From an uncultured Lysobacterales bacterium (lineage in GTDB: Bacteria; Pseudomonadota; Gammaproteobacteria; Xanthomonadales; SZUA-36), in contig CALBDB010000119.1 in the NCBI GenBank assembly GCA_937927755.1, positions 1-49,941 on the forward strand: 49,941 nt of DNA, written 5' to 3'. The translations under genes and the position numbers were made by a program. Shown piece after piece: positions 3,082 to 45,744 of this stretch. The stretch's first letter is position 1; the number at the start of each line of letters is the position of its first letter. The notes under the pieces were generated by a model. It saw only the letters and a program-made list of their open reading frames with translations. It had not been told where the DNA came from and did no database searches.

Positions 3082-3153
3082 TGCGCTCATTCTGGCGGGG
3101 TGCTCTTTCTTTTCGTGTGTATCTTTGTGGGGGCAAATAAAAGTAACTCGCCC

Positions 3154-3180
3154 TTGGGGACGAAACCCCAAACTAAATTT
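3154..3180 (+). terminator. Possible weak terminator after the symporter gene
   Basis: A 6-bp stem TTGGGG/CCCCAA (3154-3159 and 3166-3171) with loop ACGAAA is followed by an A/T-rich run (ACTAAATTT). The tail is a poor U-tract, so this is only a candidate. The preceding stretch, about 3105-3150 (CTTTCTTTT, later AATAAAAGTAAC), looks like a degenerate intergenic repeat. Confidence 0.3.
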
Positions 3181-3186
3181 AAAATG

Positions 3187-3228
3187 TTGCATTTTTAAAT
3201 AGTAGTGTTATACTTCACTACAACACTA
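3187..3228 (+). promoter_or_regulatory. Promoter with overlapping palindromic operator for the GntR/ABC operon
   Basis: TTGCAT (3187-3192) and TATACT (3209-3214), 16 bases apart, form a good sigma-70 promoter. A perfect inverted repeat TAGTGTT (3203-3209) / AACACTA (3222-3228) overlaps the -10 element. A nested GTAGTG/CACTAC pair (3202-3207 and 3216-3221) reinforces the symmetry. The next gene group contains a YtrA-type GntR repressor, and such regulators usually repress their own operon from palindromes over the promoter. The binding partner is inferred. Confidence 0.65.
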
Positions 3229-3259
3229 AAGAATCATCATCACCCAAGTGAGACACAAC

Positions 3260-3499
3260 ATGATGAACTTAATACACCACCACAGAGCCCACATCCCCAA
3301 CGGGTTGGCCGTATTAGCAGCATTTTTACTGCTCGCTGCCGGTATTACCGGCCTCGATAAGGAGTCGGAAGAATATTCTTCTTCCCAGGAGATCACGGTA
3401 GCAGCGAAAGCTGAAGTCAATAATGGGGACAGTCTCAATGATACGGTCGAGAACAAGCGCCGCGGTCTTAATTTTGGTTTGCTGCTGTTTCGCCGATAA
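3260..3499 (+). CDS. Small single-pass membrane protein, first gene of the GntR/ABC operon
   Basis: An unrecognised protein of about 79 residues. The N-terminus is His-rich (MMNLIHHHRAHIPNG). One transmembrane segment (LAVLAAFLLLAAGITGL) follows, then a hydrophilic acidic region and a short basic end (GLLLFRR). I use ATG 3260; GTG 3248 in the same frame would add four residues. It lies directly downstream of the operator-promoter and ends 5 bases before the GntR gene, so it is very likely co-transcribed. A role as a small transporter partner or a leader peptide is possible but unproven. Confidence 0.6.
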   Translation: MMNLIHHHRAHIPNGLAVLAAFLLLAAGITGLDKESEEYSSSQEITVAAKAEVNNGDSLNDTVENKRRGLNFGLLLFRR

Positions 3500-3504
3500 G
3501 TGAT

Positions 3505-3876
3505 ATGGCAACCCAATGGAATGACAGCCAGCCAATTTACTGGCAACTGAAAGAGCGTACCATCGCCATGATTCTGGATGGCACGCTGGCAGAAGGTGAT
3601 GCCCTGCCCTCGGTACGGACAGTGGCATCTGATTTCCAACTGAACCCGATTACAGTCTCAAAATCCTACCAGGCGCTCGTCGATGACCACCTGGTTGAAA
3701 AGCGCCGCGGACTAGGGATGTTTGTCCGTGAAGGTGCGCGGCATAAGCTTACCGAAAGTGAACGGCAGAAGTTCCTCACCGAGGAATGGCCGGCCATGGT
3801 CACCCGTATCCAGCAGTTGGGCCTGGATATCAACAAGCTGCTTAATTCGATGAAAGAACAAGAGGGCAATTCCTGA
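3505..3876 (+). CDS. GntR family transcriptional regulator, YtrA subfamily
   Basis: A 123-residue repressor. The winged helix-turn-helix occupies residues about 10-78: QPIYWQLKERTIAMILDG, then ALPSVRTVASDFQLNPITVS and LVEKRRGLGMFV. The short C-terminal tail of about 45 residues, with no large ligand domain, is diagnostic of the YtrA subfamily. These regulators typically sit at the head of ABC-transporter operons and repress them. The stop codon overlaps the next gene (TGATG at 3874-3878), which indicates translational coupling. The operator at 3202-3228 is the likely target. Confidence 0.9.
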   Translation: MATQWNDSQPIYWQLKERTIAMILDGTLAEGDALPSVRTVASDFQLNPITVSKSYQALVDDHLVEKRRGLGMFVREGARHKLTESERQKFLTEEWPAMVTRIQQLGLDINKLLNSMKEQEGNS

Positions 3877-4733
3877 TGAACAATGTCATTGAAGCGCGGG
3901 GTCTGACCAAACGCTACAGACGTACAGTCGCGGTTGACAATATCGACCTGCAAATTCCTGCTGGACGAATCGTCGGTCTGATCGGCCCTAACGGCGCCGG
4001 AAAAACTTCCGCACTGAAAGCCATCCTCGGTTTGGCAACCTATGAAGGCGACCTGAATGTACTGGGGAAGAGCCCTGCAAGGGACAGGGCAGCCTTGATG
4101 GAGGAAGTTTGTTTTATCGCCGATGTCGCGGTCCTGCCCCGCTGGATACGTGTCTGGCAGCTGATCGAGCTTACGGAACATATTCACCCGAAATTCTCCC
4201 GCGAGAAATGCCTGCAATACCTTTCCAGCACCAAGGTTACGCTGGATCACAGGGTCAAGCAGTTGTCCAAGGGCATGGTTGCGCAGTTACATCTCGCTAT
4301 CGTCATGGCGATTGATGTCAAACTGCTGGTGTTGGACGAACCCACGCTGGGACTGGATATTCTTTACCGAAAGCAGTTCTATACCAACTTGCTCAACGAT
4401 TATTTTGATGAAGAACGCACCATAGTCATCACTACCCACCAGGTTGAAGAAGTCGAACACATTCTCAGCGACCTGATATTCATCAAGGATGGTCGTATCG
4501 CACTCGATTGCAGTATGGATGAAGTCCAGGAGAGCTACATCGAGCTGATGGTCGCGCCGGACAAGGCCGCTGCCGCCCGTGAATACGGGCCTCTATATGA
4601 GCGTGAGTTATTTGGCCGGCACATTTTTCTTTATGAAAACGCAAACCGCGAACAACTTAAAGCCCTGGGCGAATTGCACACACCGAGTGTTGCGGACCTG
4701 TTCGTCGCTACCATGAACGGAGGTGACTCATGA
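3876..4733 (+). CDS. ABC transporter ATP-binding protein
   Basis: A 285-residue ATPase that powers the permease encoded next. Visible motifs are Walker A GPNGAGKTS (residues 37-45), a variant signature QLSKGM in place of LSGGQ, Walker B LLVLDEPTLGLD, and the switch histidine in VITTHQVEEVEH. The C-terminal ~70 residues form the accessory region common in drug or peptide exporter ATPases of the YtrB/CcmA type. It overlaps the GntR gene by one base and the permease gene by four, so the three are one translational unit. The exported substrate is unknown. YtrA-linked systems often respond to cell-wall or membrane stress. Confidence 0.9.
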   Translation: MNNVIEARGLTKRYRRTVAVDNIDLQIPAGRIVGLIGPNGAGKTSALKAILGLATYEGDLNVLGKSPARDRAALMEEVCFIADVAVLPRWIRVWQLIELTEHIHPKFSREKCLQYLSSTKVTLDHRVKQLSKGMVAQLHLAIVMAIDVKLLVLDEPTLGLDILYRKQFYTNLLNDYFDEERTIVITTHQVEEVEHILSDLIFIKDGRIALDCSMDEVQESYIELMVAPDKAAAAREYGPLYERELFGRHIFLYENANREQLKALGELHTPSVADLFVATMNGGDS

Positions 4734-5677
4734 ACCGTTTGCTGGCCCTGGTAAAGCGTGAATTCTGGGAAAACAAGGGAGCCTTCCGCACCACTCCGCT
4801 CGTGTTTGCGGGCGTTCTGCTGGGAGCCCAGGTGATGTTCCTGATCACGTTCAATCATTTTGACAATGAGTTTCAATCACTGAAAGAACTACTTCACTTT
4901 ATTTCAACGCAGGATGTTGCCCTGCGCTCCAAGGTGCTTTACGAAATTAACATGTCGTTGTCAGTGTTGTTCGCAATGATCCTGGCATTCGTTGTGTTTT
5001 TCTACCTGTTGGGTTCACTTTATGATGATCGCAAGGATCGCAGCATCCTATTCTGGAAATCGTTGCCTGCCTCAGACACAATGACGATTGGCTCAAAATT
5101 GCTTTCGGCCATGGTGGTTGCACCCTTGATCTTCTGGGTTGTTTACATCCTGACTCATATCCTAATCATGCTTCTGTTTTCCGTGGTCATCCTGACACTG
5201 GGTGAAAACCCGTGGACACTGTTACTTAGCCTGGGCAGTCCATTTAAAGTATGGAGCCTGGTCCTGGCAAGTTGGTTTGCGCAGGCTATCTGGGCACTGC
5301 CCCTGTATGGCTGGTTGATGTTGGTATCGTCATTCGCACCAAGGATTCCACTGTTATTCGCGATCCTGCCACCAGTGGTACTCGGCGTGCTGGAATTGTG
5401 GATCGATTTTTTGAAGACTTTTACCGTGAACGACAATCTTTTCGGCCTGTTCGGGAAATGGTTTGCCAATAGTCCCCTGATCATGTCTGCAGATAACCAC
5501 GGTGATGAATTCGGAGTTGCTCTGGGGGCACCACTCACAAGTGAATTCGATCATGCGGTTACCATTTCCAACATGCTGGACCGTCTCTTCTCAAGCGATA
5601 TGCTGATCAACCTGGTGATTGCTGCCATATTCCTCGGCGCCGCACTGTGGTTGAGACGCCGCGCTACTGAAAGCTAA
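4730..5677 (+). CDS. ABC-2 type transporter permease
   Basis: A 315-residue integral membrane protein. The N-terminal cytoplasmic stretch (MNRLLALVKREFWENKGAFR) is typical of ABC-2 permeases. Hydrophobic segments lie near residues 23-40, 78-100, 123-160, 175-205 and 290-310. A cytoplasmic DDRKDRSILFWKSLPAS motif follows the second segment, as in exporter permeases. The ATG overlaps the ATPase stop codon (ATGA), and a strong terminator follows, which closes the operon. Confidence 0.88.
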   Translation: MNRLLALVKREFWENKGAFRTTPLVFAGVLLGAQVMFLITFNHFDNEFQSLKELLHFISTQDVALRSKVLYEINMSLSVLFAMILAFVVFFYLLGSLYDDRKDRSILFWKSLPASDTMTIGSKLLSAMVVAPLIFWVVYILTHILIMLLFSVVILTLGENPWTLLLSLGSPFKVWSLVLASWFAQAIWALPLYGWLMLVSSFAPRIPLLFAILPPVVLGVLELWIDFLKTFTVNDNLFGLFGKWFANSPLIMSADNHGDEFGVALGAPLTSEFDHAVTISNMLDRLFSSDMLINLVIAAIFLGAALWLRRRATES

Positions 5678-5681
5678 CACT

Positions 5682-5735
5682 GCCGGGCACTGACCATGCC
5701 CGGCGGGAAGGCTTTAACCCCTGTTTACCGGGGTT
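5682..5735 (+). repeat. Two tandem hairpins between the permease gene and its terminator
   Basis: GCCGGGCA/TGCCCGGC (5682-5689 and 5697-5704) and AACCCC/GGGGTT (5716-5721 and 5730-5735) form two short perfect stems directly upstream of the main terminator. They share the GCCGGG word with it. They may stabilise the 3' end of the transcript, or may be a decayed duplicate of the terminator. Confidence 0.5.
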
Positions 5736-5740
5736 GAGCA

Positions 5741-5790
5741 TGCCGGGTAAAGCACCGAATCAGCCCTCGGTGCTTTACCCGGCACTTTTT
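5741..5790 (+). terminator. Strong rho-independent terminator of the GntR/ABC operon
   Basis: A perfect 18-bp stem (5741-5758 with 5767-5784) encloses an 8-base loop and is followed by TTTTT (5786-5790). It is the clearest intrinsic terminator in the window. It separates the ABC operon from panP. Confidence 0.92.
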
Positions 5791-5830
5791 ATCCCACACA
5801 TGGAACATCCAGCCACTTGCGGTTTAACGA

Positions 5831-5836
5831 TATAAT
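5831..5836 (+). promoter_or_regulatory. Putative -10 element of the panP promoter
   Basis: A perfect TATAAT lies 36 bases before the panP GTG and after the upstream terminator, so a promoter is expected here. No convincing -35 hexamer is seen 16-18 bases upstream. Confidence 0.4.
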
Positions 5837-5872
5837 CACACGCTTTCCCTCAAATAAAGAGTATTCCGGACC

Positions 5873-7516
5873 GTGTCTCAGGATGATCAAAACAAAAAGC
5901 TGGCGCACGCTTCATTAGAGAATCTCTACAAGATTTTTACGGCGGCAGAGGAACCAGGTTCCACGCTCGCGGTTATCGATGAGGAGATTTCCGGTAATTT
6001 GCTGGGATTCCTGCAGGACAATATTGTCGCCAGCGACAAGGAAATTGTTGAGTTGGAACATGATTTCTCTGACCCCGGTATTCCCGAGCAGCCCATATTT
6101 GTTTCCGAGCAGGCGGAGTTTCTTCTGAAGAAACTGGTCGCCGAATCGGTTCACACTTCGTCACCTGCTTTTGTAGGGCACATGACCTCGGTTTTTCCAT
6201 ACTTTATGTTGCCGCTGTCAAAAATCATGATCGCCCTGAACCAGAATGTCGTTAAGACCGAGACCTCGAAAGCATTCACGCCACTGGAGCGCCAGGTTGT
6301 AGCGATGCTGCACCGGCTGGTATATGAGGCAAGCGATGCCTTTTACTCCGAAAACATGCACCAAAGCACCCAGTCACTGGGCGCCTTCTGTTCCGGTGGA
6401 ACACTGGCCAACCTGACGGCTTTGTGGGTAGCGCGCAATAACGCCTTCAAGGCAAAGGGCAGCTTTACCGGAATCAGGCAGCGGGGCCTGGCCGCTGCAC
6501 TGGAATATTACGGTTATAAGGGCGCCGCGATTCTGGTTTCGGAACGGGGGCATTACTCCCTGACCAAGGCCGCCGATGTGCTTGGCATAGGCAGGGACCA
6601 GATTATGCCCATCGCAACCGATAACCGGAACCGGATGGACATCAGGGCACTGGAAACGAAGCTCGAACAATTAAAAGGAGATAAGGTCAAGGTGTTCGCG
6701 GTCGTGGGCATTGCCGGAACCACTGAAACTGGAAATGTCGACCCACTGGACAGGATCGCCGAAATAGCCGCACAGCACGGTTGTCATTACCACGTCGATG
6801 CGGCATGGGGCGGACCCACGTTATTCTCAAATAAATACAGGGGCTTGCTGAAAGGTATTGAGAAAGCAGATTCGGTTACCATAGACGCGCACAAACAGCT
6901 TTACGTACCGATGGGATCGGGTCTGGTCATGTTCAGACAACCGGGAGTGACGCGGGAGATCGTGCAACATGCCAACTATATCGTCCGTGAAGGTTCAAAG
7001 GATTTGGGGTCCCTGACCCTGGAAGGTTCCAGGGCCGGCATGGCCATGCTGGTTCATTCCGGCTTGAGAATCATTGGACGTGAGGGCTACCAGCTCCTTA
7101 TTGACATGGGTATTGAGAAGGCCGCTGACTTTGCAGAAATGATCGAAAAGAACCGGAATTTCGAACTGATGACCCGACCGGAATTGAATATCCTGACATA
7201 CCGGTATGTTCCTGACGGGGTGTCGGACAGGTTGACCTGTTCCGATGCTACGGAATTACGGCGTCTGAACGAATGGCTGAACGGACTGAACCAGTCACTG
7301 CAGAAAATTCAACGGGAGAGAGGCAAGTCTTTTGTTTCCAGGACCATCCTGAAACCAAAACGATATGGCGGACAGGAAATCCACGTGCTGAGGGTTGTTT
7401 TGGCTAACCCGCTGACCACCCGGCAGATACTCGGACAGGTGTTGGCCGAGCAGACCGGGATTGTCAGGGAATATCAACTCGACAAGACAAACAACGCCTA
7501 CATCTCGACGGAATAG
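5873..7516 (+). CDS. panP: Pyridoxal-dependent aspartate 1-decarboxylase (PanP-type)
   Basis: This 547-residue group II PLP decarboxylase matches the PanP (pyridoxal-type aspartate 1-decarboxylase) layout rather than a classical glutamate decarboxylase. PanP makes beta-alanine from aspartate for pantothenate. Visible features are SPAFVGHMTSVFP (residues about 97-109), the substrate/PLP region FCSGGTLANLTALW, GIAGTTETGNVDP, the PLP-ring aspartate in HVDAAWGG (D309) and the Schiff-base lysine in DAHKQ (K341). Start is GTG 5873. No pyruvoyl-type panD is seen in the window, although panB, panC and coaX are, which supports this role. The 3' end overlaps the convergent sulfotransferase gene by 19 bases. 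Confidence 0.85.
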   Translation: MSQDDQNKKLAHASLENLYKIFTAAEEPGSTLAVIDEEISGNLLGFLQDNIVASDKEIVELEHDFSDPGIPEQPIFVSEQAEFLLKKLVAESVHTSSPAFVGHMTSVFPYFMLPLSKIMIALNQNVVKTETSKAFTPLERQVVAMLHRLVYEASDAFYSENMHQSTQSLGAFCSGGTLANLTALWVARNNAFKAKGSFTGIRQRGLAAALEYYGYKGAAILVSERGHYSLTKAADVLGIGRDQIMPIATDNRNRMDIRALETKLEQLKGDKVKVFAVVGIAGTTETGNVDPLDRIAEIAAQHGCHYHVDAAWGGPTLFSNKYRGLLKGIEKADSVTIDAHKQLYVPMGSGLVMFRQPGVTREIVQHANYIVREGSKDLGSLTLEGSRAGMAMLVHSGLRIIGREGYQLLIDMGIEKAADFAEMIEKNRNFELMTRPELNILTYRYVPDGVSDRLTCSDATELRRLNEWLNGLNQSLQKIQRERGKSFVSRTILKPKRYGGQEIHVLRVVLANPLTTRQILGQVLAEQTGIVREYQLDKTNNAYISTE

Positions 7517-9513
7517 CGTTCGCGAACCTCCGGCCCCAGCGCTTCTTTCAGCGGGTCGAGGTGTCTCTCATAATTTCGCCACTGCTCTGTACTTTCCTTG
7601 TAGATCGGCCTGCGCACCTGTTCCGAACTGGGTGTCCGTACGGCCCGGTCAGTCTCGTAAAACCTCAGGCACTGTTCCTCAAAACCCAGTCCGCAATAAT
7701 CCAGTAGCGCGCGGATTTGCGTCTCGGTATCGGCAACCATTTCCTCGTACTGCACACGGTGCACCCGGCCGGGAAGTACGGCGTCCCAGTGGTCCATCAG
7801 CCTGACGTAGTCACGATAGTACTTGCCGATATCTTCAAGACCGTAGGTGAATGTCTGGCCGTTGGCGAACAATTGTTTATACCCCGAAAAACAGCCGCCC
7901 ATGGGGTGGCGTCTCGCGTCAATGATCTTGCTTTTGGGCAATATCAGGTGGATCAAGCCGATATGGCGGAAATTATTCGGCATCTTGTCGATAAAAAACG
8001 GTGTATCGCTGCGCTGAATACGCGTTGTTTCCAGGTAACTCTCACCCAGTTCCCGGAACTGCTCCTCCGTCATCCCAGCAAGACATTCCGGATACTTGCC
8101 CGATGGATTTTGCCGGGATTTTTCACCAAGTTTCCGGGAAATCGCGATGATGTCCTGTAGCTCCGATGTGCCTTCCACCTGTGAGTGGCTGGCTAAAATC
8201 TGTTCAAGCAAGGTTGAGCCGGCACGTGGCAGACCGACGATGAATATCGGATCAGGCGCCTGGCAACCCCCGCCTTCGCGTTGCTCAATAAACTCCTTGT
8301 TGAAGACCCTGACCTGGCGCACGGCCTCGAATACGTTGATCTTGGGGTTATGCCGGTGCTCGATCCGCCGGATCGCATTGCCACGCCGGTAAAACCGGAA
8401 GGACTCATCAAACTCTCCGCGATCTTCCAGTGCTTTGCCCAAGGCGAATGCCAGGTGTGACTGGTCGTCGGCATCACCGCCTTCTGCGGTGACCTGTTTC
8501 CGCATGTCTTCGATGTCATCGTCACTGAACCGAAAAGTCTTCAGATTGGCAAGGCTCCAGTAAGCCTCGCCTACTTCCGGGCTCAATCGGATACATTTCC
8601 TGTAAGCCTCGATGGACTCGTCGAGCCGGCCAACCGTTTTAAGTGTGTGACCGTAGCTCATCTGGGCTCTTGCCTGGCTGGGGTAATTCTTAAGCACTTT
8701 TTCATAAATCTCGAGTGCTTCTGCATGGTCCCCTATCCGGACCAGGATTGAGGCCTTGAGGGTCAGGAAATTGGGGTTGTTTGGCTCATGCCTCAGCAAT
8801 TTTTCAGCTTCCGACATCGCTGCTTCGGGCTTTTGCAGCCGCACCAGCAGTGTTGCATAACTGTGCCTGGCCGCATGGAAATCGGGCGCCAGTTCCAGGC
8901 ACCGCTCCAGCAGGTTGCTGGCATCCTTTAATTGACCCAGCCTGACACCGATATCGGCAAGTACACGGATTGCGGATACATCCACGGGATATTTCTTTAG
9001 CAATTCGCGGACAATTTTTTCTGCCTTGGCCAGTTTATTTTCGCGTAAAAGCTTCACGGCCTCGACCAGTTCCGGATGACGGGTCGAGAGTTCAAAATGC
9101 CGTTCAAAAGCCTGGCGGCTTCCCTCCTCGTCACCGGCTACCTTTAACTGGTGCCCAAGGCTTTGCCACGAAGCAGCGTGCTTCGGATCCAGCTTGACTG
9201 CCCTGCGAAGGGACTTGACCGCCTCGTCACCGCGCCCCACTGCACCAAGGCATTGCGCCATTTCATGTAGAAAGTCCGGTGAGTCACTGTACTCTGCAAA
9301 CAGGGGGGTTAAAACTTCGAGTCCTTTTTGTGGCATTGTCTGCAGGCGGTAAGCAGTGGCCAGTATCCTTTTTGCCTGGGGTGTATCGGGGTAAACCTTC
9401 AGTATTTCACCTACCTGTTCTTCAGCCAGGCGCGGGTCTCGCGAAAGCAGTTCAGCCGCATTCCTGAGCGCTGTTTGAATATCGCCTTTGTCAGATTCTC
9501 TGGGAGTTTTCAT
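7498..9513 (-). CDS. TPR-repeat sulfotransferase family protein
   Basis: A 671-residue protein in two halves. Residues about 15-400 are TPR-like helical repeats (for example HAASWQSLGHQLKVAGDEEG and SYGHTLKTVGRLDES). Residues about 420-660 are a sulfotransferase fold with the PAPS-binding P-loop GLPRAGSTLLEQ (427-438), followed by HSQVEGTSEL, and DKMPNNFRHIGLIHLILP and DARRHPMGGCFSGYKQLF further on. Family members transfer sulfate from PAPS, but the substrate here is unknown. There is no signal peptide or membrane segment, so it is cytoplasmic. It is divergent from the TonB receptor gene, 207 bases away, a pairing that hints at a shared role. Confidence 0.85.
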   Translation of the reverse strand: MKTPRESDKGDIQTALRNAAELLSRDPRLAEEQVGEILKVYPDTPQAKRILATAYRLQTMPQKGLEVLTPLFAEYSDSPDFLHEMAQCLGAVGRGDEAVKSLRRAVKLDPKHAASWQSLGHQLKVAGDEEGSRQAFERHFELSTRHPELVEAVKLLRENKLAKAEKIVRELLKKYPVDVSAIRVLADIGVRLGQLKDASNLLERCLELAPDFHAARHSYATLLVRLQKPEAAMSEAEKLLRHEPNNPNFLTLKASILVRIGDHAEALEIYEKVLKNYPSQARAQMSYGHTLKTVGRLDESIEAYRKCIRLSPEVGEAYWSLANLKTFRFSDDDIEDMRKQVTAEGGDADDQSHLAFALGKALEDRGEFDESFRFYRRGNAIRRIEHRHNPKINVFEAVRQVRVFNKEFIEQREGGGCQAPDPIFIVGLPRAGSTLLEQILASHSQVEGTSELQDIIAISRKLGEKSRQNPSGKYPECLAGMTEEQFRELGESYLETTRIQRSDTPFFIDKMPNNFRHIGLIHLILPKSKIIDARRHPMGGCFSGYKQLFANGQTFTYGLEDIGKYYRDYVRLMDHWDAVLPGRVHRVQYEEMVADTETQIRALLDYCGLGFEEQCLRFYETDRAVRTPSSEQVRRPIYKESTEQWRNYERHLDPLKEALGPEVRERYSVEM

Positions 9514-9710
9514 AAGCTACATTATCCACAAATATGCCGCGGACGGCCGTGATTTAGCGCTTTTTAGCACGGCTAACAAATGTTCGTATTGCATGTTAAA
9601 GGAATTCTCAAAAATAACCTGCTAGTATGTTCTTGAATACGCGTTGAAAAAATAAAAATATACTTTTACAGACCCTCGTCTGAAGAGCAAGCAAACAGCA
9701 ATTTTACGCA

Positions 9711-9715
9711 GGAGG
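9711..9715 (+). promoter_or_regulatory. Ribosome binding site fixing the GTG start of the TonB receptor
   Basis: GGAGG is followed by five bases and then GTG 9721. This is among the strongest Shine-Dalgarno sequences in the window, and it supports a GTG start that also places the signal peptide correctly. Confidence 0.7.
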
Positions 9716-9720
9716 ATCAA

Positions 9721-12153
9721 GTGAGGACGTTCAAAAGAAAACAATTAGCACAGTCAATCTCCATGGCGCTGGTGGGCTCAGTCGTCGCTGCAACGGTCGT
9801 AATGCCAGCACAGGCACAAGACAATACGGCCCAGCTTGAAGAAGTGATCGTTACCGCGCAAAAACGCGAACAAAATATGCAGGATGTAGCCCTTTCAATC
9901 CAGGTCCTGGGTAACCAGCAACTTGAGGAATTGAATGTCCGGTCGTTTGACGACTTCATTAATTTCCTGCCAACTGTTTCATACACTGCCCAGGGCGGAC
10001 CTGGCGGCCCTGGCTTTGGCCAGGTTTACATGCGCGGTATCGCCAGTGGCGGTGATGGAAATCACTCCGCTTCCATGCCCAGTGTCGGCTATTACCTGGA
10101 CGAGCAACCTGTAACCACGATCAACCAGGTCCTGGATATCCATATGTACGATATCGCCCGTGTTGAAACACTGGCCGGCCCGCAAGGCACATTTTACGGC
10201 CAGGGCAGCCAGTCGGGCACTATCCGTATTATCACCAACAAGCCTGAGATCGGTGTATCCTTGGGCGGCTATGACCTGGAAGTCAACACGGTCAAAAGCG
10301 GCGACATGGGCTATGACCTGAATGGCTTCTGGAACTTCCCGATTGGTGAACGCGCCGCGATCAGGCTGGTGGCCTGGCACAAGGAAGTTGGCGGCTATAT
10401 TGACCAGGTGCCCACCACCATGCACTTCCCTGGCCCACAAGCCTATACCGTCGATAATTCGGATTTTACCGGCAAGGACGACAACTCGGTTACGACCAGT
10501 GGTCTGCGTGCATTACTCAAAGTTGACCTGAACGACAACTGGTCCATCACACCGGGCATCATGGCTCAGAATTCTGATCACGATGGCTACTTTCATCACA
10601 ACCCGGAATTCTTTGGCGACCTGGAAACCGGCCACCTCTGGCCAGCTTCCGGCGAAGATGACTGGTACCAGGCCACACTGACACTGAATGGCAGTATCGG
10701 TGATGTCGATATGGTTTATGCGGGTGCATACCTGGACCGGCAACAGGACTACCAGTACGACTACAGTGATTATACCGAGTACTGGGCCTATTACCTTACC
10801 AACCCCGATTACTATGAAGCCCCTGGCTACTGTGTGTACTACAACGACGCAGGTGACTGCGCCGTTGGAACACAATACGTAGACGCCCAGAACGATTTCA
10901 CCCGCCAGAGCCATGAACTGCGCTTCCAATCCGCTGCGGATCAACGCCTGCGCTGGACCGGCGGCCTGTTCTATCAAACCCAGAAGCACTCATTCGACCT
11001 GCAGTACACCGTTCCTGATTCGGCCGTTGCCACATCGGTGGTCGAAGGGGGCAACGTGGTGTGGCAGACCAAGCAGGTCCGCGAAGACCGGGATACGGCC
11101 GCTTTTGGCGAACTGACCTTCGACTTCACTGACAAGTTCTCGGGCACAATTGGCGCCAGGTATTTCGAATACGAAAATTCACTCTATGGTTTCAATGGTT
11201 TCCTGCGGCACTGTACCGGGCAATACATCGACGGTGAATTTGTCGAAATACCTGCCGATGAAGGCGGCGAGATTCAGTATCCCTGCTTCAATACACGGAT
11301 ACTGGATGACGTGGCCAAGGGCGATGACTGGGCCTTCAAGGGCAATCTCGAATATCGTTTTGATACTAACAAGATGATTTATGTCACATGGTCGGAAGGC
11401 TTCAGGGCCGGCGGTGTAAACCGCGCAAGGGTTGAGGGTATTCCCAAGTATGATCCTGATTTTGTCACCAACTACGAGTTCGGCTGGAAGACAGTCCTGG
11501 CCGATGGCGCGGTCCGGTTTAACGGTGCGGTGTATATCCTTGACTGGGATAATTTCCAGTTTGGTTTCCTCGACTTCGAAGTTTCCAACCTGACCATTGT
11601 TCAGAATGTCGGTAACTCACAGACCAAGGGTGTGGAATGGGATCTGGCCTGGGCAGTGAATGACAAAAATACCTTGAGCTTCGCCGGATCCTATAACGAC
11701 GCTGAACTGAAAACCAATTTCTGGCGCACACAGGATCTCGAAGATGCAGGCGAGCCGCCTAACGCACCGAAAGGCACACCCATGCCCTACGTGCCAAAGT
11801 GGCAGTTGACCGGTATCTGGCGTAGTAATTTCGATGTAGGCTCCCTGCCCTCTTTCTTCCAGGCCGCCCTTTCCTACACCGGCGCGCGCTGGAATGACCT
11901 GGATACGCTCAACGTTCCTGCCAGGCGAAAGATGGATGACTATACGTTGTTGAACCTTTCCACCGGTATAGAGAAAGATAACTGGACGCTTTCCCTGTAC
12001 GTCAACAACGTATTCGACGAGCGTGCACAGATAGATATCGAAGACCCGGGTTATGGTGGCCTGCCGAATCTCCAGCGGCCACCGGGACACAAGTGGACCA
12101 CTGTTACCAACCGGCCACGGTCGTTTGGTATTCGTTTCGGCCAGAGGTTCTGA
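9721..12153 (+). CDS. TonB-dependent outer membrane receptor
   Basis: An 810-residue outer-membrane active transporter of the large iron-complex-receptor-like family. The signal peptide covers residues 1-32 (cleavage after PAQA). A TonB-box/plug entry follows (LEEVIVTAQKREQNMQDV), then the plug domain with VYMRGIASGG and VETLAGPQGTFYGQGSQSG. The 22-strand barrel includes SEGFRAGGVNRAR and FDERAQ and ends in the terminal aromatic GQRF. An extracellular stretch around residues 340-385 is very Tyr/Asp-rich and has two cysteines. The substrate is unknown; relatives import siderophores, vitamins, sugars or aromatic and steroid-like compounds. It stands alone between the divergent sulfotransferase and a terminator. 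Confidence 0.93.
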   Translation: MRTFKRKQLAQSISMALVGSVVAATVVMPAQAQDNTAQLEEVIVTAQKREQNMQDVALSIQVLGNQQLEELNVRSFDDFINFLPTVSYTAQGGPGGPGFGQVYMRGIASGGDGNHSASMPSVGYYLDEQPVTTINQVLDIHMYDIARVETLAGPQGTFYGQGSQSGTIRIITNKPEIGVSLGGYDLEVNTVKSGDMGYDLNGFWNFPIGERAAIRLVAWHKEVGGYIDQVPTTMHFPGPQAYTVDNSDFTGKDDNSVTTSGLRALLKVDLNDNWSITPGIMAQNSDHDGYFHHNPEFFGDLETGHLWPASGEDDWYQATLTLNGSIGDVDMVYAGAYLDRQQDYQYDYSDYTEYWAYYLTNPDYYEAPGYCVYYNDAGDCAVGTQYVDAQNDFTRQSHELRFQSAADQRLRWTGGLFYQTQKHSFDLQYTVPDSAVATSVVEGGNVVWQTKQVREDRDTAAFGELTFDFTDKFSGTIGARYFEYENSLYGFNGFLRHCTGQYIDGEFVEIPADEGGEIQYPCFNTRILDDVAKGDDWAFKGNLEYRFDTNKMIYVTWSEGFRAGGVNRARVEGIPKYDPDFVTNYEFGWKTVLADGAVRFNGAVYILDWDNFQFGFLDFEVSNLTIVQNVGNSQTKGVEWDLAWAVNDKNTLSFAGSYNDAELKTNFWRTQDLEDAGEPPNAPKGTPMPYVPKWQLTGIWRSNFDVGSLPSFFQAALSYTGARWNDLDTLNVPARRKMDDYTLLNLSTGIEKDNWTLSLYVNNVFDERAQIDIEDPGYGGLPNLQRPPGHKWTTVTNRPRSFGIRFGQRF

Positions 12154-12167
12154 TCCCGTCATGAAAG

Positions 12168-12201
12168 ACCGCGGCTGGTTTTAGCCGGCCGCGGTTTTTT
12201 T
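12168..12201 (+). terminator. Rho-independent terminator of the TonB receptor gene
   Basis: An 8-bp perfect stem ACCGCGGC (12168-12175) / GCCGCGGT (12188-12195) with a 12-base loop runs directly into seven T residues. It begins 15 bases after the stop codon. Confidence 0.88.
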
Positions 12202-12342
12202 ATGGAAGAACGGTTTCAAGCGGCAGCACTCTGCGCGTGCCTGTAGTTCAAACCCGCTCACGCCCCGTGATACAGTTAACCGGCAAACACTTTTTTATTT
12301 CCATTCTCATGAATGGAGAGCCATTGCTGACAAACTGCTTTC

Positions 12343-13590
12343 ATGGCCACAAATACAGACAATAAGAGATCGCCCCAATGGCTGGCCCTGCACTTTCCAC
12401 AGCCGGCGGACCAGGCCAACCTGGAGCGTCTCGCTGCCTGGTGTTACCAGTACAGCAGCCAGGTCTGTATTGCCGCTCAGCATAATGGCCTGTTGCTGGA
12501 AGTCGCCGCCAGTCGGCGTTTGTTTGGCAATGCCGAAACATTGGCCGGACGCATCTGTACAGAACTTGAACATCTCGGCTACCGTGTCATCAGCGGCAGC
12601 GCACCCACGCCGGAAGCAGCGCACCTCGGGGCCAGGCACGGTTTTCACATACATACGCCCGGCGACATACGCAAAAGCATCGGTGTGCTCCGCATCGACA
12701 GCCTGAACCTCCACAGCACATCCGTACAGGCCTTGCAAAAAACGGGATTTCGCACCGTTGCCGAGGTGCTCCGCTTACCACGCAAGGCTTTGACACGGCG
12801 ACTGGGGGTGGCAACAAGTGATTACCTGGATCGCCTGCTTGGCCAGCGCCCCGACCCCTGCAAGGTATTCCGTCCGCCGGACAGTTTCTCGGCCGGTATT
12901 GATTTGCCGGATACAGCGCACACCCAGGGTCTGCTCTTTCCCCTGAAACGACTGGTGCAGGAACTATGCGGGGTGTTGCGCGCCCGCGACCACGGTATAC
13001 AGACTCTGCAGGTTTGCTTGCAGATGGGTGAAGCCTCGCAAACCATCGGCCTGAACCTGCAGCGGGCGACACGCTCCGAATCCCATCTGGTGATGTTATT
13101 GCGCGAGCGTCTGGAACGTCTGCAACTGCCCTGCCCGGTGCGCCATATCCGTTTGCAGGCACCGCATTTCCTGCCCTGCGCGGCGATCCAGGATGGTTTG
13201 TTAAAAGAAGCAGGCAAGCCCTCTATGGAAATGGACAATACCGTTATCGAACGTCTGCAGGCCAGGTTGGGGAAAGGGTCTGTCAGGGGGATCAGGGGCC
13301 TGCAGGATTACCGCCCCGAGTACAGCTGGTCGTGGCGGGAACCGGATGATCCAGCCACCTGCACCACGCAACCGGGCAGGCCGGCCTGGCTGTTTCCCGA
13401 ACCGCAACACTGCCGGATCGACAACTACCGGATACTGGCTGGTCCCGAGCGTATAGAGTCCGGCTGGTGGGACGGCCGCGACTGCCGCAGGGATTACTTC
13501 GTTGTGCGGGATTCGAGCGGCAGCACCCTGTGGGCTTTTCGTGAATACAAACCCCGCCCCGGTTGGTATTTGCACGGTTTATTCTCATAA
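12343..13590 (+). CDS. imuB: ImuB-like Y-family polymerase homologue (mutasome adaptor)
   Basis: This 415-residue protein resembles ImuB, a catalytically inactive Y-family polymerase that links the error-prone polymerase DnaE2 (ImuC) to the sliding clamp. The N-terminal SPQWLALHFPQ stands where active Y-family enzymes carry catalytic acids, and no such triad is seen. LLLEVAASRRLFG, ISGSAPTPEAAHLGAR, TVAEVLRLPRKALTRRLG, YLDRLLGQRPDP and the C-terminal DYRPEYSW and GRDCRRDYFVV are family features. I see no canonical QLxLF clamp motif. No imuA lies upstream, and no LexA box was found before it; dnaE2 is 5.4 kb away. GC content and style match the neighbours. Confidence 0.82.
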   Translation: MATNTDNKRSPQWLALHFPQPADQANLERLAAWCYQYSSQVCIAAQHNGLLLEVAASRRLFGNAETLAGRICTELEHLGYRVISGSAPTPEAAHLGARHGFHIHTPGDIRKSIGVLRIDSLNLHSTSVQALQKTGFRTVAEVLRLPRKALTRRLGVATSDYLDRLLGQRPDPCKVFRPPDSFSAGIDLPDTAHTQGLLFPLKRLVQELCGVLRARDHGIQTLQVCLQMGEASQTIGLNLQRATRSESHLVMLLRERLERLQLPCPVRHIRLQAPHFLPCAAIQDGLLKEAGKPSMEMDNTVIERLQARLGKGSVRGIRGLQDYRPEYSWSWREPDDPATCTTQPGRPAWLFPEPQHCRIDNYRILAGPERIESGWWDGRDCRRDYFVVRDSSGSTLWAFREYKPRPGWYLHGLFS

Positions 13591-13640
13591 AATGCCTATA
13601 ATGGAGGGGGGCCAATAAACACCATGAAGAAAGAAACACC

Positions 13641-14267
13641 ATGAATGCGCTCGGCAAACTATTCCTGAAGGGTTTGGTGGTTGTTATACCCGTCACACTG
13701 ACGCTCGCAATCTTGTGGTGGGTGGCCGCGAGTGCAGAGCGGTTACTGGGCGTTGTACTGAAATTTATCCTGCCCGCCGGCTGGTATGTGCCGGGCATGG
13801 GGCTGATAGCCGGTCTTGCCCTGATTGTATTGATCGGCCTGCTTTCACATGTCCTGATTTTTCAGAAGCTGTTCAATCTCGGTGAAGCCATCTTCCACCG
13901 CCTGCCGCTGGTCAAGACCATTTACACCGCCATCAAGGATTTTATTGATTATTTGAACCCGGATAAAAAAAATGAAATGGGTAAGGTCGTGATGGTGCAA
14001 CTCCCCGGCCAGGCATTCCAGTTGATCGGATTTGTGACACGCGAGCAATTTGATGACCTGCCATTTACACCAACAGCCGAAGACCCGGTGGCTGTATACA
14101 TGCCAATGAGTTACCAGATCGGCGGCTACACCCTGTTTCTGCCGCGCAATTGCCTGACACCGCTGGATATACCATTCGAGCAGGGAATGAAGCTGGTTTT
14201 GACCGGAGCGGTCACCAAGGACGTAGAAAAAACCGATATAAGCAGCGGCGAAGCCGATAATCCCTGA
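13641..14267 (+). CDS. DUF502 family inner-membrane protein
   Basis: A 208-residue protein. It begins with a transmembrane segment (residues about 8-30, LKGLVVVIPVTLTLAILWWV), has a second near 50-72 (GMGLIAGLALIVLIGLLSHV), then the conserved LPLVKTIYTAIKDFIDYL. A soluble C-terminal part contains VVMVQLPG, IGFVTRE and the YMPMSYQIGGYTLFLPR block. These mark DUF502, a widespread bacterial family of unknown function. Start is ATG 13641, which overlaps the stop of a tiny six-codon frame (13624-13644). It converges on coaX with 16 bases between the stops. Confidence 0.88.
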   Translation: MNALGKLFLKGLVVVIPVTLTLAILWWVAASAERLLGVVLKFILPAGWYVPGMGLIAGLALIVLIGLLSHVLIFQKLFNLGEAIFHRLPLVKTIYTAIKDFIDYLNPDKKNEMGKVVMVQLPGQAFQLIGFVTREQFDDLPFTPTAEDPVAVYMPMSYQIGGYTLFLPRNCLTPLDIPFEQGMKLVLTGAVTKDVEKTDISSGEADNP

Positions 14268-14283
14268 ACCAGGAAATTTCCGG

Positions 14284-15063
14284 CTAAAGCCTGTCGGCGT
14301 TCAACTCCAATACCGCCAACAGGCCACGCAGCACCAGGTCCGGCATGACCTGGTCAAACAGACCGGTCCCGCCGAATAAGGACGCAAACCCACCGGTAGC
14401 AATTACCCGGGGACGCTGCCCACCAAATTCTTCCAGCTGAATCCTGTGGATGATTTCATGCAGGGCTCCGAGGTGACCAAAGAATAGCCCGGACTGGATA
14501 CTGTCAGCAGTGGTGCGGCCGAGACAGATATCCTTGCGGGTAATTTCGACCGAACCGAGCTTCGATGTACCGCTTTCCAGCGCCTGCATCGACATTTTCA
14601 GCCCTGGCAGGATAACGCCACCCTTGTAGGAATGATCCTTGCCGACCGCGCACAGGGTAGTTGCGGTGCCCAGGTCTACGATCACGAGGTTCTCCCCAGG
14701 GTGCAGGGCAATCCCGCCAACGGCATTGGCAATGCGGTCAGCGCCCACTTCCAGCGGGTTTCTGTACTGGATTTTCATGCCGGTTTTAACGCCGGCCTGG
14801 AGGATGAAAGGACGAATAGCAAAATATTTCTGGCAGGCCGCCGAAATTGCATAAACCATCTCCGGCACCACGCTGCACAGGGCAATTTCGGCAACACGGT
14901 TGGGATCGAGATCGTTCTCCCGTAGCACGGAACGGAAAAACAGGCCGTATTCATCCGATGACGAACCCAGTTTCGACGCCTTGCGAAAGGTCAACAGTGC
15001 ACGGCCGGATTCGAACACACCACCGTAAATATGGCTATTACCAACATCCAGGCAAAGTTTCAT
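14284..15063 (-). CDS. coaX: Type III pantothenate kinase
   Basis: This phosphorylates pantothenate with ATP, the first committed step to CoA. The 259-residue protein has the CoaX-type ASKHA fold: the phosphate loop CLDVGNSH near the N-terminus, NPLEVGADRIANAVG with catalytic Asp109, VIVDLGTATTLCAV, and RVIATGGFASLFG. It is the last gene of the pan-coa run; its ATG overlaps the coaBC stop (ATGA). CoaX enzymes are not inhibited by CoA and often require a monovalent cation. Confidence 0.95.
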   Translation of the reverse strand: MKLCLDVGNSHIYGGVFESGRALLTFRKASKLGSSSDEYGLFFRSVLRENDLDPNRVAEIALCSVVPEMVYAISAACQKYFAIRPFILQAGVKTGMKIQYRNPLEVGADRIANAVGGIALHPGENLVIVDLGTATTLCAVGKDHSYKGGVILPGLKMSMQALESGTSKLGSVEITRKDICLGRTTADSIQSGLFFGHLGALHEIIHRIQLEEFGGQRPRVIATGGFASLFGGTGLFDQVMPDLVLRGLLAVLELNADRL

Positions 15064-16304
15064 GGTGCTGTCTCCATCAATTTATTAATTGTTTTTGCCA
15101 ATGCTTCACCATCGGCACAATGTACCGGTTCCCTCATCGGGGCATATAGCTGGAAAGGATGCGCCTCGTGGCCGATTTCCGAAAGATCATTGTGAACCAC
15201 GGCGTCGATTTGCGGGTGATCAAGTTGTTTCCTGACCGCTGCAATACGTTGTTGCAAATCGTCGGTATCGGTCAGCTTGAACCCAATGACCATTAGCGAC
15301 GGGTTTCTGGACCATGATTTCAGCTGGTTCAATAATTTCGGGTTTTTTTTGAGACGCAGTAACAGATCAGACTCCGAGGACAGTTTCCCTCGCAGGTTTT
15401 CCAGCACGTCACCTCGCGATGTTTCAATACTGGCCAGGCTGAAGTCACTGACCGCCGCCGCGTGTATGACTACATCGTAGATACCGGACCCAAGCAATTC
15501 CCGCAAGCGGGCTTCCAGGTCTGCAAAACTGTAATAGGACACCATCCGCTCCACCGAGGCCGGCCTTATTGCGTCTTCGGCGCCCAGCCAGGTCAGCTCA
15601 TGTCCCGCGGCGATCAATTCTTCGGTAAGGCGCGCGGCGGTGCGGCCGCTGCTCATATTGCCAATATATCGAACAGAATCGATAGTTTCCCGGGTACCGC
15701 CGGCAGTCACCAAGACCCGTTTCCCTGTCTTTTTCTGATCAAAAGCCAACAGGCGTTCAACGGTTTCAAGTATTTCAGCTGGTTCCAGCATCCGGCCCTC
15801 ACCGTGTTCCCCGCACGCCAGTTGACCTTTACCCACCGGTAATACATGGATACCCCATCGCTTCAGTCGTCTTACGCTTTCGCGGGTCGCGGGATATCGC
15901 CACATACGCGTATTCATGGCCGGCACGATCACCATGGGTATACCCCGGCCGTAAGCAGCCTGCCACACGGTGCTTACAGCATCATCGGCAATTCCGGCGG
16001 ACAGCTTGTTGATCAGGTTTGAGGTGGCGGGCGCTGCAATGATGATATCCGCCCATTTTCCGAGCGAGATGTGTTCCATCTCGTGGCCGGGGGTGAAGAC
16101 ATTGTCAAAGACCATCCTGGCGCCAAGGTCGGCCAGCTCGGCATGACCGATAAACTCAGCGACGCTGCGGGTGCAGGCTACCCGCACCTCACTACCATGC
16201 TTTGTCCATGCCGAAACCAGGGATGAGGCCTTGCTGCACGCGATGGAACCCGACATCAACAACAGGATATTGGATCCGGAATTTTTACTTTCAGATTTCG
16301 ACAT
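15060..16304 (-). CDS. coaBC: Bifunctional phosphopantothenoylcysteine synthetase/decarboxylase
   Basis: This joins cysteine to 4'-phosphopantothenate and decarboxylates the product to 4'-phosphopantetheine. The N-terminal flavoprotein decarboxylase half (to about residue 185) shows LLLMSGSIACSKASSLV, ISLGKWADIIIAAPATSNLINK and the PAMNTRMW motif. The C-terminal synthetase half has VLVTAGGTRETIDSVRYI followed by NMSSG. I start at ATG 16304 (414 residues) rather than an upstream TTG at 16310. It overlaps the 3' end of panC by 14 bases, in line with coupled translation. Confidence 0.95.
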   Translation of the reverse strand: MSKSESKNSGSNILLLMSGSIACSKASSLVSAWTKHGSEVRVACTRSVAEFIGHAELADLGARMVFDNVFTPGHEMEHISLGKWADIIIAAPATSNLINKLSAGIADDAVSTVWQAAYGRGIPMVIVPAMNTRMWRYPATRESVRRLKRWGIHVLPVGKGQLACGEHGEGRMLEPAEILETVERLLAFDQKKTGKRVLVTAGGTRETIDSVRYIGNMSSGRTAARLTEELIAAGHELTWLGAEDAIRPASVERMVSYYSFADLEARLRELLGSGIYDVVIHAAAVSDFSLASIETSRGDVLENLRGKLSSESDLLLRLKKNPKLLNQLKSWSRNPSLMVIGFKLTDTDDLQQRIAAVRKQLDHPQIDAVVHNDLSEIGHEAHPFQLYAPMREPVHCADGEALAKTINKLMETAP

Positions 16305-17046
16305 TATCAATCAACCTCGTATTTCCAAGTTGTACCGCCGCCAGGCGACGATTGGCAATATCCTCTACGTAATCAACAGAAAAACCCAAATCGGCAAGGG
16401 TTTGGCTGGCCTCGGTTACCGTACGGCTGGATTTTAGCGTTGCGTAGAACCCTGCAGCCAATGCCCTCTGCCGACTGTTCAGACGCTGATTGCGTGAACT
16501 CATTGCCAGGCCATCGGCCTCACGAACCGTTTTGCAGGCAACAATGTTTACCGGCATGAAAAATGCTGACACCATGTCGTGGATCAGTTGCAACTGCTGG
16601 TAGTCCTTTTCGCCAAAGTAGGCGTTGTCGGGCCGGACCAGGTTCAACAGGCGCATCACCACGGTCAGCACACCGTCAAAATGACCCGGGCGATGGGCGC
16701 CGCATAAACGCCGGCTGAATTCAGCCTCACTGACCTTGAAACGATAATCATCGGCATAGATCTGCGCCGTGTCGGGTAACAGAACCGCAGCAACACCCGC
16801 TTTTTCCAGTATCTCGACATCTTTACCATCGTCGGCCGGATACGCTTCAAAATCAGCCTTGTCGTCGAATTGCTTTGGGTTGATGAATACACTGACCACT
16901 GTAACGACGTCCCGCGCAAGGCTTGCTTCGACCAGCGACAGGTGCCCCGGGTGCAAAGCGCCCATGGTCGGCACGAACCCTAACGGGCTTTCCTGCAGGC
17001 CGGCACGGTAAATTTTCCAATCGTCTATCGACTTAAAAATCTTCAT
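16291..17046 (-). CDS. panC: Pantothenate synthetase (pantoate--beta-alanine ligase)
   Basis: This condenses pantoate and beta-alanine using ATP to give pantothenate. The 251-residue protein (typical family length about 280) carries the HxGH-type signature in FVPTMGALHPGHLSLVEAS (H32, H35), FINPKQFDDKADFEAYP, the adenylate-site YFGEKDYQQLQLIHDMV and MSSRNQRL. The C-terminal domain is slightly short. Its start overlaps the panB stop (ATGA). The beta-alanine would come from PanP, encoded at 5873-7516. Confidence 0.95.
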   Translation of the reverse strand: MKIFKSIDDWKIYRAGLQESPLGFVPTMGALHPGHLSLVEASLARDVVTVVSVFINPKQFDDKADFEAYPADDGKDVEILEKAGVAAVLLPDTAQIYADDYRFKVSEAEFSRRLCGAHRPGHFDGVLTVVMRLLNLVRPDNAYFGEKDYQQLQLIHDMVSAFFMPVNIVACKTVREADGLAMSSRNQRLNSRQRALAAGFYATLKSSRTVTEASQTLADLGFSVDYVEDIANRRLAAVQLGNTRLIDNVEI

Positions 17047-17834
17047 TGGCCATAACTCTCATCGGCCGTTGGGAAGTTCCCGCTTTTCACATCGCTGGCA
17101 TATGTATTGAAAGCATTGAGCAGTACAGCGCGGCCATCGAGATACTGGCGTACAAACCGTGGTTTGAAGTCACTGGACAAACCCAACATGTCCTGCATCA
17201 CCAACACCTGTCCGTCGGTATGGACACCGGCGCCAATGCCAATGGTCGGTATGTTCAGCGTTTCCGTGATTTCCGCTGCCAGTTTTTCGGGCACACATTC
17301 AAGCACGAGGGAAAAACACCCGGCCTGCTCGCAGGCCAACGCTTCTCTCAACAGTGTTTCAGCAGCACTTTGACCACGTCCCTGCACACGATAACCACCC
17401 AACTGGTTGATTGATTGCGGCGTCAGACCCAGGTGACCCATCACCGGCACACCTGACTTAACGATATGGGCTATGGTCTCCGCATTGCCTTCGATACCTT
17501 CCAGTTTGACAGCATGGGCGCCAGCCTTCATGACACTGGCGACGGCATGCATATTGTCCGTTCGCGACTGCCGGAAAGACAGGAAGGGCATATCACCGAC
17601 TATGAACTTGTCTTTGGCGCCACGGGCAACGCTCTCGATATGCCGGCACATCATTTCAATATCCGCCGGTATGGTCGTGCCATGGCCGTGCATGACCATC
17701 GCCGCGCTGTCACCAACCAGTATCACGTCCACATCCGACTCCTGAACGATCCGTGCCGAGGTATAGTCGTAGCAGGTCAGCATGACAATCTTTTCCTTGC
17801 GGGTCTTAAACCCCTGAAAATCAAGCACATTCAT
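17043..17834 (-). CDS. panB: 3-methyl-2-oxobutanoate hydroxymethyltransferase (ketopantoate hydroxymethyltransferase)
   Basis: This adds a hydroxymethyl group from methylene-tetrahydrofolate to alpha-ketoisovalerate, making ketopantoate. The 263-residue protein shows the PanB barrel motifs: MLTCYDYTSARIVQES, VILVGDSAAMVMHGH, AHAVKLEGIEG, VMGHLGLTPQSINQLGG and PTIGIGAGVHTDGQVLVMQD. Length is typical. It overlaps panG upstream and panC downstream by four bases each. Confidence 0.96.
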   Translation of the reverse strand: MNVLDFQGFKTRKEKIVMLTCYDYTSARIVQESDVDVILVGDSAAMVMHGHGTTIPADIEMMCRHIESVARGAKDKFIVGDMPFLSFRQSRTDNMHAVASVMKAGAHAVKLEGIEGNAETIAHIVKSGVPVMGHLGLTPQSINQLGGYRVQGRGQSAAETLLREALACEQAGCFSLVLECVPEKLAAEITETLNIPTIGIGAGVHTDGQVLVMQDMLGLSSDFKPRFVRQYLDGRAVLLNAFNTYASDVKSGNFPTADESYGQ

Positions 17835-18601
17835 ACAGCTTTCTCCATTCGGGCCTGTTTGGAAACCGGACGACGGGTTCCGCCGTCCTGGTAAAAAAGA
17901 ATAAACGCACGGTATAGGTCCTGAAGCGGGTCACCATCCAGCGAATCGAGATTGCGTTCAATGGTCTTTTGGTCGCCGCGTGCCAGCGGTCCTGTCAATG
18001 CAGACTCCGGCGTCTGGATGAAATTTTCCGCAACCTGCTTCAGGTAGGGGTGCAATGTTTCAGCAGGCAAGCCCAGGTCCTGCTCAAAACGATCGGCAAT
18101 TCCTTTCCACAATACCTGGGAAAAATTACCGGCCGATACACACATGGCGTGATAACGGGCCCTGTCGCCCGTCTTGATAGAAAAGTGCGGGTTTGGCAAA
18201 TCTGGAAACACATCTGCAAAATCCTGCCCTGCATCCAACATGAACGGGATCGATTGATAGGTATCCAGCTCGTACAGGTGTTCTGCGAATGTCATCAACG
18301 GGTGTGCGCCGGTGACACTGGGCAAATTCAGTGCCCCGCTGCAATGGACCAGTCGCTTGCCGTGCAGAAATGGATATTGCTCCAGCAGGGCCGGAATGGC
18401 CTGATCTGAAACCAGCAACAGGATACATCCGGCCTTATCGATCGATTTTCGCAAACGTGTTTCAGCATCCACATCCTCAAATGTATTGAGTGACGCGTGG
18501 TGATCACGTGCCCAGCGGGTATGGGGGATTTCCAGCAAATGGAAATACCGGGAGAAGTGGCGGGCCAGTCTGCCGCCGCCAAGAATAGCGTAGTTAACCA
18601 T
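17831..18601 (-). CDS. panG: Rossmann/DUF2520 protein, probable ketopantoate reductase of the PanG type
   Basis: A 256-residue protein. It has an N-terminal NAD(P)-binding Rossmann motif, NYAILGGGRLARHFS (about residues 3-17), and then a helical DUF2520-like half with HPLMTFAE and YHAMCVSAGNFSQVLWKGI. It is not a PanE homologue by motif, but it heads the panB-panC-coaBC-coaX run. In Francisella a protein of this kind, PanG, supplies ketopantoate reductase activity. I infer it reduces ketopantoate to pantoate with NADPH. An alternative is a general DUF2520 oxidoreductase with ketopantoate reductase supplied by IlvC. A GGAGG lies about 12 bases before the ATG. Confidence 0.7.
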   Translation of the reverse strand: MVNYAILGGGRLARHFSRYFHLLEIPHTRWARDHHASLNTFEDVDAETRLRKSIDKAGCILLLVSDQAIPALLEQYPFLHGKRLVHCSGALNLPSVTGAHPLMTFAEHLYELDTYQSIPFMLDAGQDFADVFPDLPNPHFSIKTGDRARYHAMCVSAGNFSQVLWKGIADRFEQDLGLPAETLHPYLKQVAENFIQTPESALTGPLARGDQKTIERNLDSLDGDPLQDLYRAFILFYQDGGTRRPVSKQARMEKAV

Positions 18602-44873: not shown

Positions 44874-45662
44874 TCAAGCCTGGGGGGCAAACGGAAATGA
44901 CTGGGCGATTTCCGGCAGCTTGTATTTCGGGTCGTAGCGGACGCCCATAAAACACAGACCCTCGGCGTCAGCCTTCACACCAGCCAGGTTCCGGTCCCTG
45001 CCCTTGAACACGCTGCTGAACCACTCCACAGACTGCTCGCCCAGGCCGACTGTAAGCAGGCTTCCGACAATGTTTCGCACCATGTGATAAAGGAACGCAT
45101 TGGCCGAGATATCGACTGTCACGATATCCTGCTGGCGTGTCACACTGATTGCAGTAATTTCCCGGATGGCATGTTGCGCCGAGCAGCCAGCCGAGCGGAA
45201 GGCGCTGAAATCGTGTTTGCCGACCAGGCACTGGGCAGCTTCATGCATCAGCTTGGTATCCAGCGGGTCACGGCACCACCCATAGTATGAAACACCGATG
45301 GCCGGACGAACCCAGCGGTTCATGATGCTGTACCTGTAACTCCTCGAATGAGCGCCAAAACGTGCATGGAAACTGTCATCAACTGCGTGTATCCATAAGA
45401 CCCGAACAGTCCGGGGCAGGTTTGAATTGATACCCAGCACCCACTGTCGTTCCGAGCGTTCAGACGGGGTGTCGAAATGCGCCACCTGTCCACGTGCGTG
45501 GACACCTGTATCTGTGCGACCGGCACAAATGATGGTTACAGGGTGATTGGCAACGGTACCCAGCGCGTCTTCGACACATTGCTGTACCGACGGCGCGTGA
45601 CTCTGCCTCTGCCAGCCGAAAAAACCGGCGCCATCGTATTCAATTCCGAGTGCATAACGCAT
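44874..45662 (-). CDS. truA: tRNA pseudouridine(38-40) synthase
   Basis: This modifies uridines 38-40 in the tRNA anticodon arm. The 262-residue protein starts MRYALGIEYDGAGFFGWQRQ and has the catalytic aspartate in CAGRTDTGVHARGQV (Asp51), HDFSAFRSAGC and FLYHMVRNIVGSLLTVG. It sits between fimV and trpF, the conserved arrangement. Confidence 0.97.
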   Translation of the reverse strand: MRYALGIEYDGAGFFGWQRQSHAPSVQQCVEDALGTVANHPVTIICAGRTDTGVHARGQVAHFDTPSERSERQWVLGINSNLPRTVRVLWIHAVDDSFHARFGAHSRSYRYSIMNRWVRPAIGVSYYGWCRDPLDTKLMHEAAQCLVGKHDFSAFRSAGCSAQHAIREITAISVTRQQDIVTVDISANAFLYHMVRNIVGSLLTVGLGEQSVEWFSSVFKGRDRNLAGVKADAEGLCFMGVRYDPKYKLPEIAQSFPFAPQA

Positions 45663-45744
45663 GATTTCAAGCCTGTTCCGTGTTGATAAGGCTTACAGCC
45701 AGGCTCAAATGCCACTCCTGTATTTATCGCGGGCAAGCATCTCT

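Follow-up and report, generated by a model that had tools for sequence, protein, structure and literature searches.

The window, that is, the whole stretch of 49,941 nucleotides that was analysed, is one entire contig of the 3.44-Mb draft genome of an uncultured Lysobacterales bacterium (191 contigs that total 3,435,190 bases; completeness 97.33%, contamination 0.61%). Five genes follow one another on its reverse strand between positions 18601 and 14284. The first, panG (17831-18601), encodes a DUF2520 protein (PF10728, 63.1 bits; cut-off 25) that is predicted to be the ketopantoate reductase; then come panB, for ketopantoate hydroxymethyltransferase (17043-17834; TIGR00222, 323.3 bits; cut-off 207.55), panC, for pantoate--beta-alanine ligase (16291-17046; TIGR00018, 238.8 bits; cut-off 212.75), a bifunctional coaBC (15060-16310; TIGR00521, 265 bits; cut-off 219.7), which carries the one above-cut-off DFP domain of the whole genome, and coaX, for a type III pantothenate kinase (14284-15063; NF009855, 301.8 bits; cut-off 233). 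Successive genes overlap by 4, 4, 20 and 4 nt, and the five thus form one operon, which the preliminary description does not name as such. A sixth gene, panP, stands by itself on the forward strand (5873-7516); its product, a predicted PLP-dependent aspartate 1-decarboxylase, covers positions 2-521 of the 522 of profile TIGR03799 and scores 849.3 bits, the equivalog cut-off being 606.1. Every gene named in the preliminary description of this DNA is an open frame: PanP, PanB, PanC, CoaBC and CoaX each exceed their NCBIfam cut-offs, and the DUF2520 protein exceeds its Pfam cut-off. The search for σ70 promoters found 5 in the operon region, against 4.0 expected by chance, and none for panP (1.3 expected); no RNA family was found in the window. 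Farther along, at 45745-47919 on the reverse strand, a gene encodes a large protein that contains long, acidic PE repeats; the low-complexity frame opposite it (45661-46596, forward strand) is most likely spurious.

Between them, the six genes would cover most of the steps that lead from ketoisovalerate and aspartate to 4'-phosphopantetheine. Ketopantoate would be the product of PanB, and PanG would use NAD(P)H to reduce it to pantoate; PanC would join pantoate to beta-alanine, itself made from aspartate by PanP; CoaX would phosphorylate the resulting pantothenate, and CoaBC would add cysteine and then decarboxylate the product. None of the enzymes is of a new kind: PanD/PanP, PanE/PanG and CoaA/CoaX/CoaW are already listed as alternatives in the available text of a survey of gut bacteria (PMC6593275). 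The account developed below, in which a PanG operon and an acquired panP together feed the pantothenate route, is held with good confidence as a whole.

What is the evidence that the DUF2520 protein reduces ketopantoate? The known counterpart is Francisella PanG (FTT1388, with E. faecalis EF1861 as a homologue; Miller et al. 2013), which catalyses the reaction in Francisella according to the accessible portion of PMC4572677; the likeness lies in the DUF2520 assignment of that description and not in a comparison of sequences. In Francisella, PanG is listed with locus number 1,388, next to PanC with 1,390. In the window, panG is the first gene of an operon that also includes coaBC and coaX, and the genome has IlvC as well. 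B. subtilis YkpB, which has likewise been renamed PanG, shares the name and the proposed reaction but belongs to a different protein family, having been placed in the PanE orthologous group (PMC11487621, as excerpted). NCBIfam release 20.0 holds no model that matches the window protein. A literature search in which subscription papers were mostly not covered found no publication on the panG-panB-panC-coaBC-coaX operon, for which no novelty is claimed.

The fold is what a reductase would have. An AlphaFold model of PanG computed from 44 sequences (mean pLDDT 94) has a Rossmann-type domain at the N-terminus, with the DUF2520 domain after it, and matches Rossmann-type reductases over its whole length; the best solved structures are 3d1l, a putative NADP oxidoreductase (Z 17.1, rmsd 3.3, 232 residues aligned), and 2i76 (Z 16.1, rmsd 3.0, 224 aligned), with imine reductases, prephenate dehydrogenases, pyrroline-5-carboxylate reductases and ketol-acid reductoisomerases ranking lower. 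The model is compatible with an NAD(P)H reductase, in a fold that is common to many reductases and does not indicate the substrate. PF10728 matches all 44 sequences of the set (A2), the window's included, and 22 aligned columns are invariant, among them G8, G10, H86, H100, Y150, H151, N159, T203, G204, R208 and D210. PanE depends on a catalytic lysine; no lysine is invariant among the 44 aligned PanG sequences.

Further evidence is the company that panG keeps. It directly adjoins panB in all 40 fetched relatives (from two families), of which 34 have all five genes, 5 stop at a contig edge, and 1 breaks inside panC (L054, G156:C274, whose contig continues for another 6 kb beyond the interruption). 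A named scan with PanG confirmed 135 relatives, of which 80 were kept (L164-L243). These come from several phyla (Gammaproteobacteria, Bdellovibrionales, Spirochaetales, Riflebacteria, Melioribacteraceae, Alphaproteobacteria and others), and panB directly follows panG in 79 of the 80. The stretches read also hold panC in 78 cases, coaX in 64, coaBC in 61, panD in 34 and panP in none, counts that are lower bounds because the stretches stop at contig edges. Likeness to the operon-type PanG was how the 80 loci were picked, and several of the 40 fetched genomes are among them; the class-wide Pfam search, on the other hand, was chosen independently of the operon. It located DUF2520 in 54 of 369 genomes, at 55 places. 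Among the 20 places fetched, panB adjoins panG in all 16 of the short type (which overlap with the 80 named loci, as with G383 / L220) and in none of the 4 longer ones; the other 35 are the window itself, 30 long-type places with short loci only, an unclassified fragment (G284) and 3 long-type places that were not fetched. Plasmids yielded 19 records in a search for PanG, all below 60% identity, those listed being at 23-30%; they were left out of the comparison. A viral origin was considered and rejected: none of 54 pattern matches in viral_contigs was confirmed as a relative.

The DUF2520 family thus consists of two branches, short and long. The long branch, with frames of roughly 290-375 aa from the same order and class, shares the Pfam domain with PanG, and panB occurs in 0 of its 13 fetched stretches (5.7-8.0 kb). 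Two further DUF2520 sets have panB in 1/30 (L028, which is the operon-type G147) and 0/30, in stretches of just 1.8-3.4 kb that make these counts weak. Since panB was not found beside the long branch in the 13 stretches, the Pfam label by itself does not mean PanG, and was rejected as sufficient for that name. The preliminary description's designation of the DUF2520 protein as PanG-like accordingly holds for the short branch beside panB and has to be narrowed to it. For that branch, ketopantoate reductase is the likely function, judging from gene context; the linkage points to the pathway and not to the reaction.

Two other enzymes could in principle take this step. PanE is not recognised in the window's genome: at 97.33% completeness, the best ApbA_C match has 13 bits, under the cut-off of 22.7. 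That bears out the earlier claim of a PanG-like protein and no PanE, and likewise one part of a genome check proposed with it, which also named ilvC. IlvC is encoded in the genome: a 494-aa frame matches KARI_C twice (G000:C130:5135-5959), so the absence of PanE is not enough by itself to identify the DUF2520 protein as the reductase. (This two-domain form of KARI is found in the window's genome and in the congener G181; five of seven congeners searched have the one-domain kind only, and G117 has both.) In B. subtilis IlvC acts as a ketopantoate reductase, and in E. coli it does so promiscuously, according to the available text of PMC11487621; it is thus a second possible ketopantoate reductase here. 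Might it be the one that serves, leaving the DUF2520 protein to another role in the pathway, for instance in regulation or a side reaction? The precedents in other bacteria and the presence of the two-domain KARI speak for this, but it seems quite improbable in view of the near-constant attachment of panG to panB across the named loci and of the genomes that have neither alternative: KARI_C is missing from 8 of 35 operon-bearing genomes searched (G064, G071, G088, G098, G103, G112, G118 and G128, 91-99% complete), all 8 also lack ApbA_C, and all still keep panG beside panB. PanG is the only candidate there among the three kinds of reductase considered. Both domains are also absent from 4 of 5 long-branch genomes searched (G009, G020, G037, G065). 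Less telling is a comparison within the order, where operon-type panG lies beside panB in 45 of 220 genomes; ApbA_C is also present in 4 of these 45, as against 78 of the 175 others (Fisher p = 3.9e-6, not a fair probability because the genomes are related). PanG as the predicted reductase of the short branch remains the preferred reading.

The aspartate decarboxylase step has a different history. As the preliminary description held, the enzyme is of the PLP-dependent PanP type and not PanD: a search of the 97.33%-complete genome for the Asp_decarbox domain of PanD gave no match. The reference for this type is PanP of V. fischeri (TIGR03799; Pan et al. 2017, as cited by others), and the window protein matches the profile in full length and above the equivalog cut-off; the window gene is a lone one, without a counterpart above the cut-off in any other sampled genome of the order. 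TIGR03799 reaches E 1e-60 or better in 7 of 220 genomes of the order (a broken PanP weaker than that would escape the absence counts), above the cut-off only in the window's own, and in the class sample it exceeds the cut-off in 11 of 369 genomes, again with the window's own among them. The nearest sampled relative of the window PanP is 60% identical, a named scan that used PanP alone turned up nothing, and in a tree of 20 rows, which points to no donor, the window sequence falls in no starred group. PanP-like domains also occur in three very long frames (7463, 3296 and 1064 aa between stops; G020:C15:486954-488384, G119:C40:2678-4120 and G400:C75:15967-17403), as if built into large synthases.

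How did panP come to lie where it does? In the congener G181 both genes that flank panP are retained, 79% and 83% identical to those of the window and about 150 bp apart. The homology is clear up to about 5791, where a terminator-like hairpin belonging to the upstream ABC genes ends (5741-5784, forward strand; 18 pairs, then CTTTTTAT; present at the panP-free site of G181 as well), and resumes at about 7493. What is here and missing there is thus a segment of about 1.7 kb with approximate ends (5792-7492) and one gene. The GC content of panP is ordinary for the window (0.524 vs 0.543), and neither repeats nor mobile genes were seen at the ends of the segment. The case for a gain accordingly rests on presence and absence and on the one panP-free site. 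Relatives of PanP on plasmids lie near an integrase in one case, an integrase and an NRPS in another and a PKS in a third, which indicates that such genes do move. One could instead suppose that the ancestor of the genus or family already had panP and that nearly every member but this one has lost it; its ordinary GC content, the lack of a mobile gene at the site and the two PanP pieces at contig ends in G010, of the same order, which together resemble a whole gene, would suit that view. It is nevertheless unlikely, given a single genome above the cut-off in the order sample, the 80 operon loci devoid of panP within the stretch read, and the compact, well-aligned panP-free site of G181. That panP arrived near the operon on a segment with just this gene, once the family had mostly lost PanD, is the preferred explanation.

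That PanD was lost is itself the simplest reading of its distribution. It is found in 135 of 220 genomes of the order but in only 2 of 39 of the window's family, and panD follows coaX within the operon of Marinicella-type relatives. Twenty family members bear the operon: 2 have PanD, 1 (the window's own genome) has PanP, and 17 show neither. Eleven of the 17 are at least 92% complete (G056, G063, G070, G107, G196, which has 6% contamination, G007, G035, G082, G087, G112 and G147). In the seven operon-bearing congeners other than G152, neither PanP nor PanD was found. In G152, a contig filed in the same genus (L041, G152:C97) has a divergent operon, with panG 41% identical, split coaB/coaC and panD, which suggests misbinning or transfer.

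Where, then, does the beta-alanine of these relatives come from? The window's genome encodes two further, divergent PF00282 proteins, together with a deoxynucleoside kinase gene (L117 2179-5850, contig C82). The genes of the pair lie at 4399-5850 on the forward strand and 2826-4301 on the reverse strand. Both proteins recur in 7 of the 9 genus members read, in which PanD is absent; these proteins might be makers of beta-alanine. As aspartate decarboxylases they find no support, both lying below every decarboxylase cut-off. Near the panG operon of other genomes, 0 of 96 loci have a deoxynucleoside kinase or PF00282 gene. If one of the pair did make beta-alanine, here and in the relatives, the window PanP would be free to serve another product, a thought encouraged by the co-occurrence of the pair with PanD's absence and by the PanP-like genes that lie near NRPS or PKS genes elsewhere. 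This too has little probability: no synthase gene stands beside the window panP, neither PF00282 protein passes a decarboxylase cut-off, and G018, a genus member with PanD, keeps one of the pair's kind all the same. PanP as the predicted source of beta-alanine for the route is favoured. A more extended scheme, put forward tentatively and on balance with more doubt than belief, would see panG-panB-panC-coaBC-coaX(-panD) as a pantothenate-to-CoA operon that is shared widely and that lost its panD end in the window's family, most members using an unrecognised beta-alanine route, perhaps the paired PF00282 decarboxylases, and the window's genome acquiring panP as a lone gene not far from the operon.

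The operon is also variable in its fourth gene. In Marinicella and other groups coaBC is split, within the same operon, into two overlapping frames, coaC of about 180 aa and coaB of about 225 aa: 15 of the 40 fetched relatives have the split form (L041, L056-L059, L061-L067, L070, L072, L073), as do 24 of the 80 named loci, against 33 with the fused one.

Can the combination of PanP, PanG and CoaX serve as a marker of the lineage, as had been proposed? The distribution says otherwise, and the proposal was rejected: what the lineage shares is the operon, itself common far beyond the lineage, while panP is, within the order sample, nearly private to one genome.

The findings bear on annotation as well as on this family of bacteria. 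They provide strong context evidence for calling short-branch DUF2520 proteins, a group without a matching model in NCBIfam release 20.0, ketopantoate reductases, and they reveal a second DUF2520 branch that exists without a pantothenate context. They also describe a family that has a pantothenate operon and mostly lacks a recognised aspartate decarboxylase; the one member with a single-gene replacement is a natural test of where the others obtain their beta-alanine.
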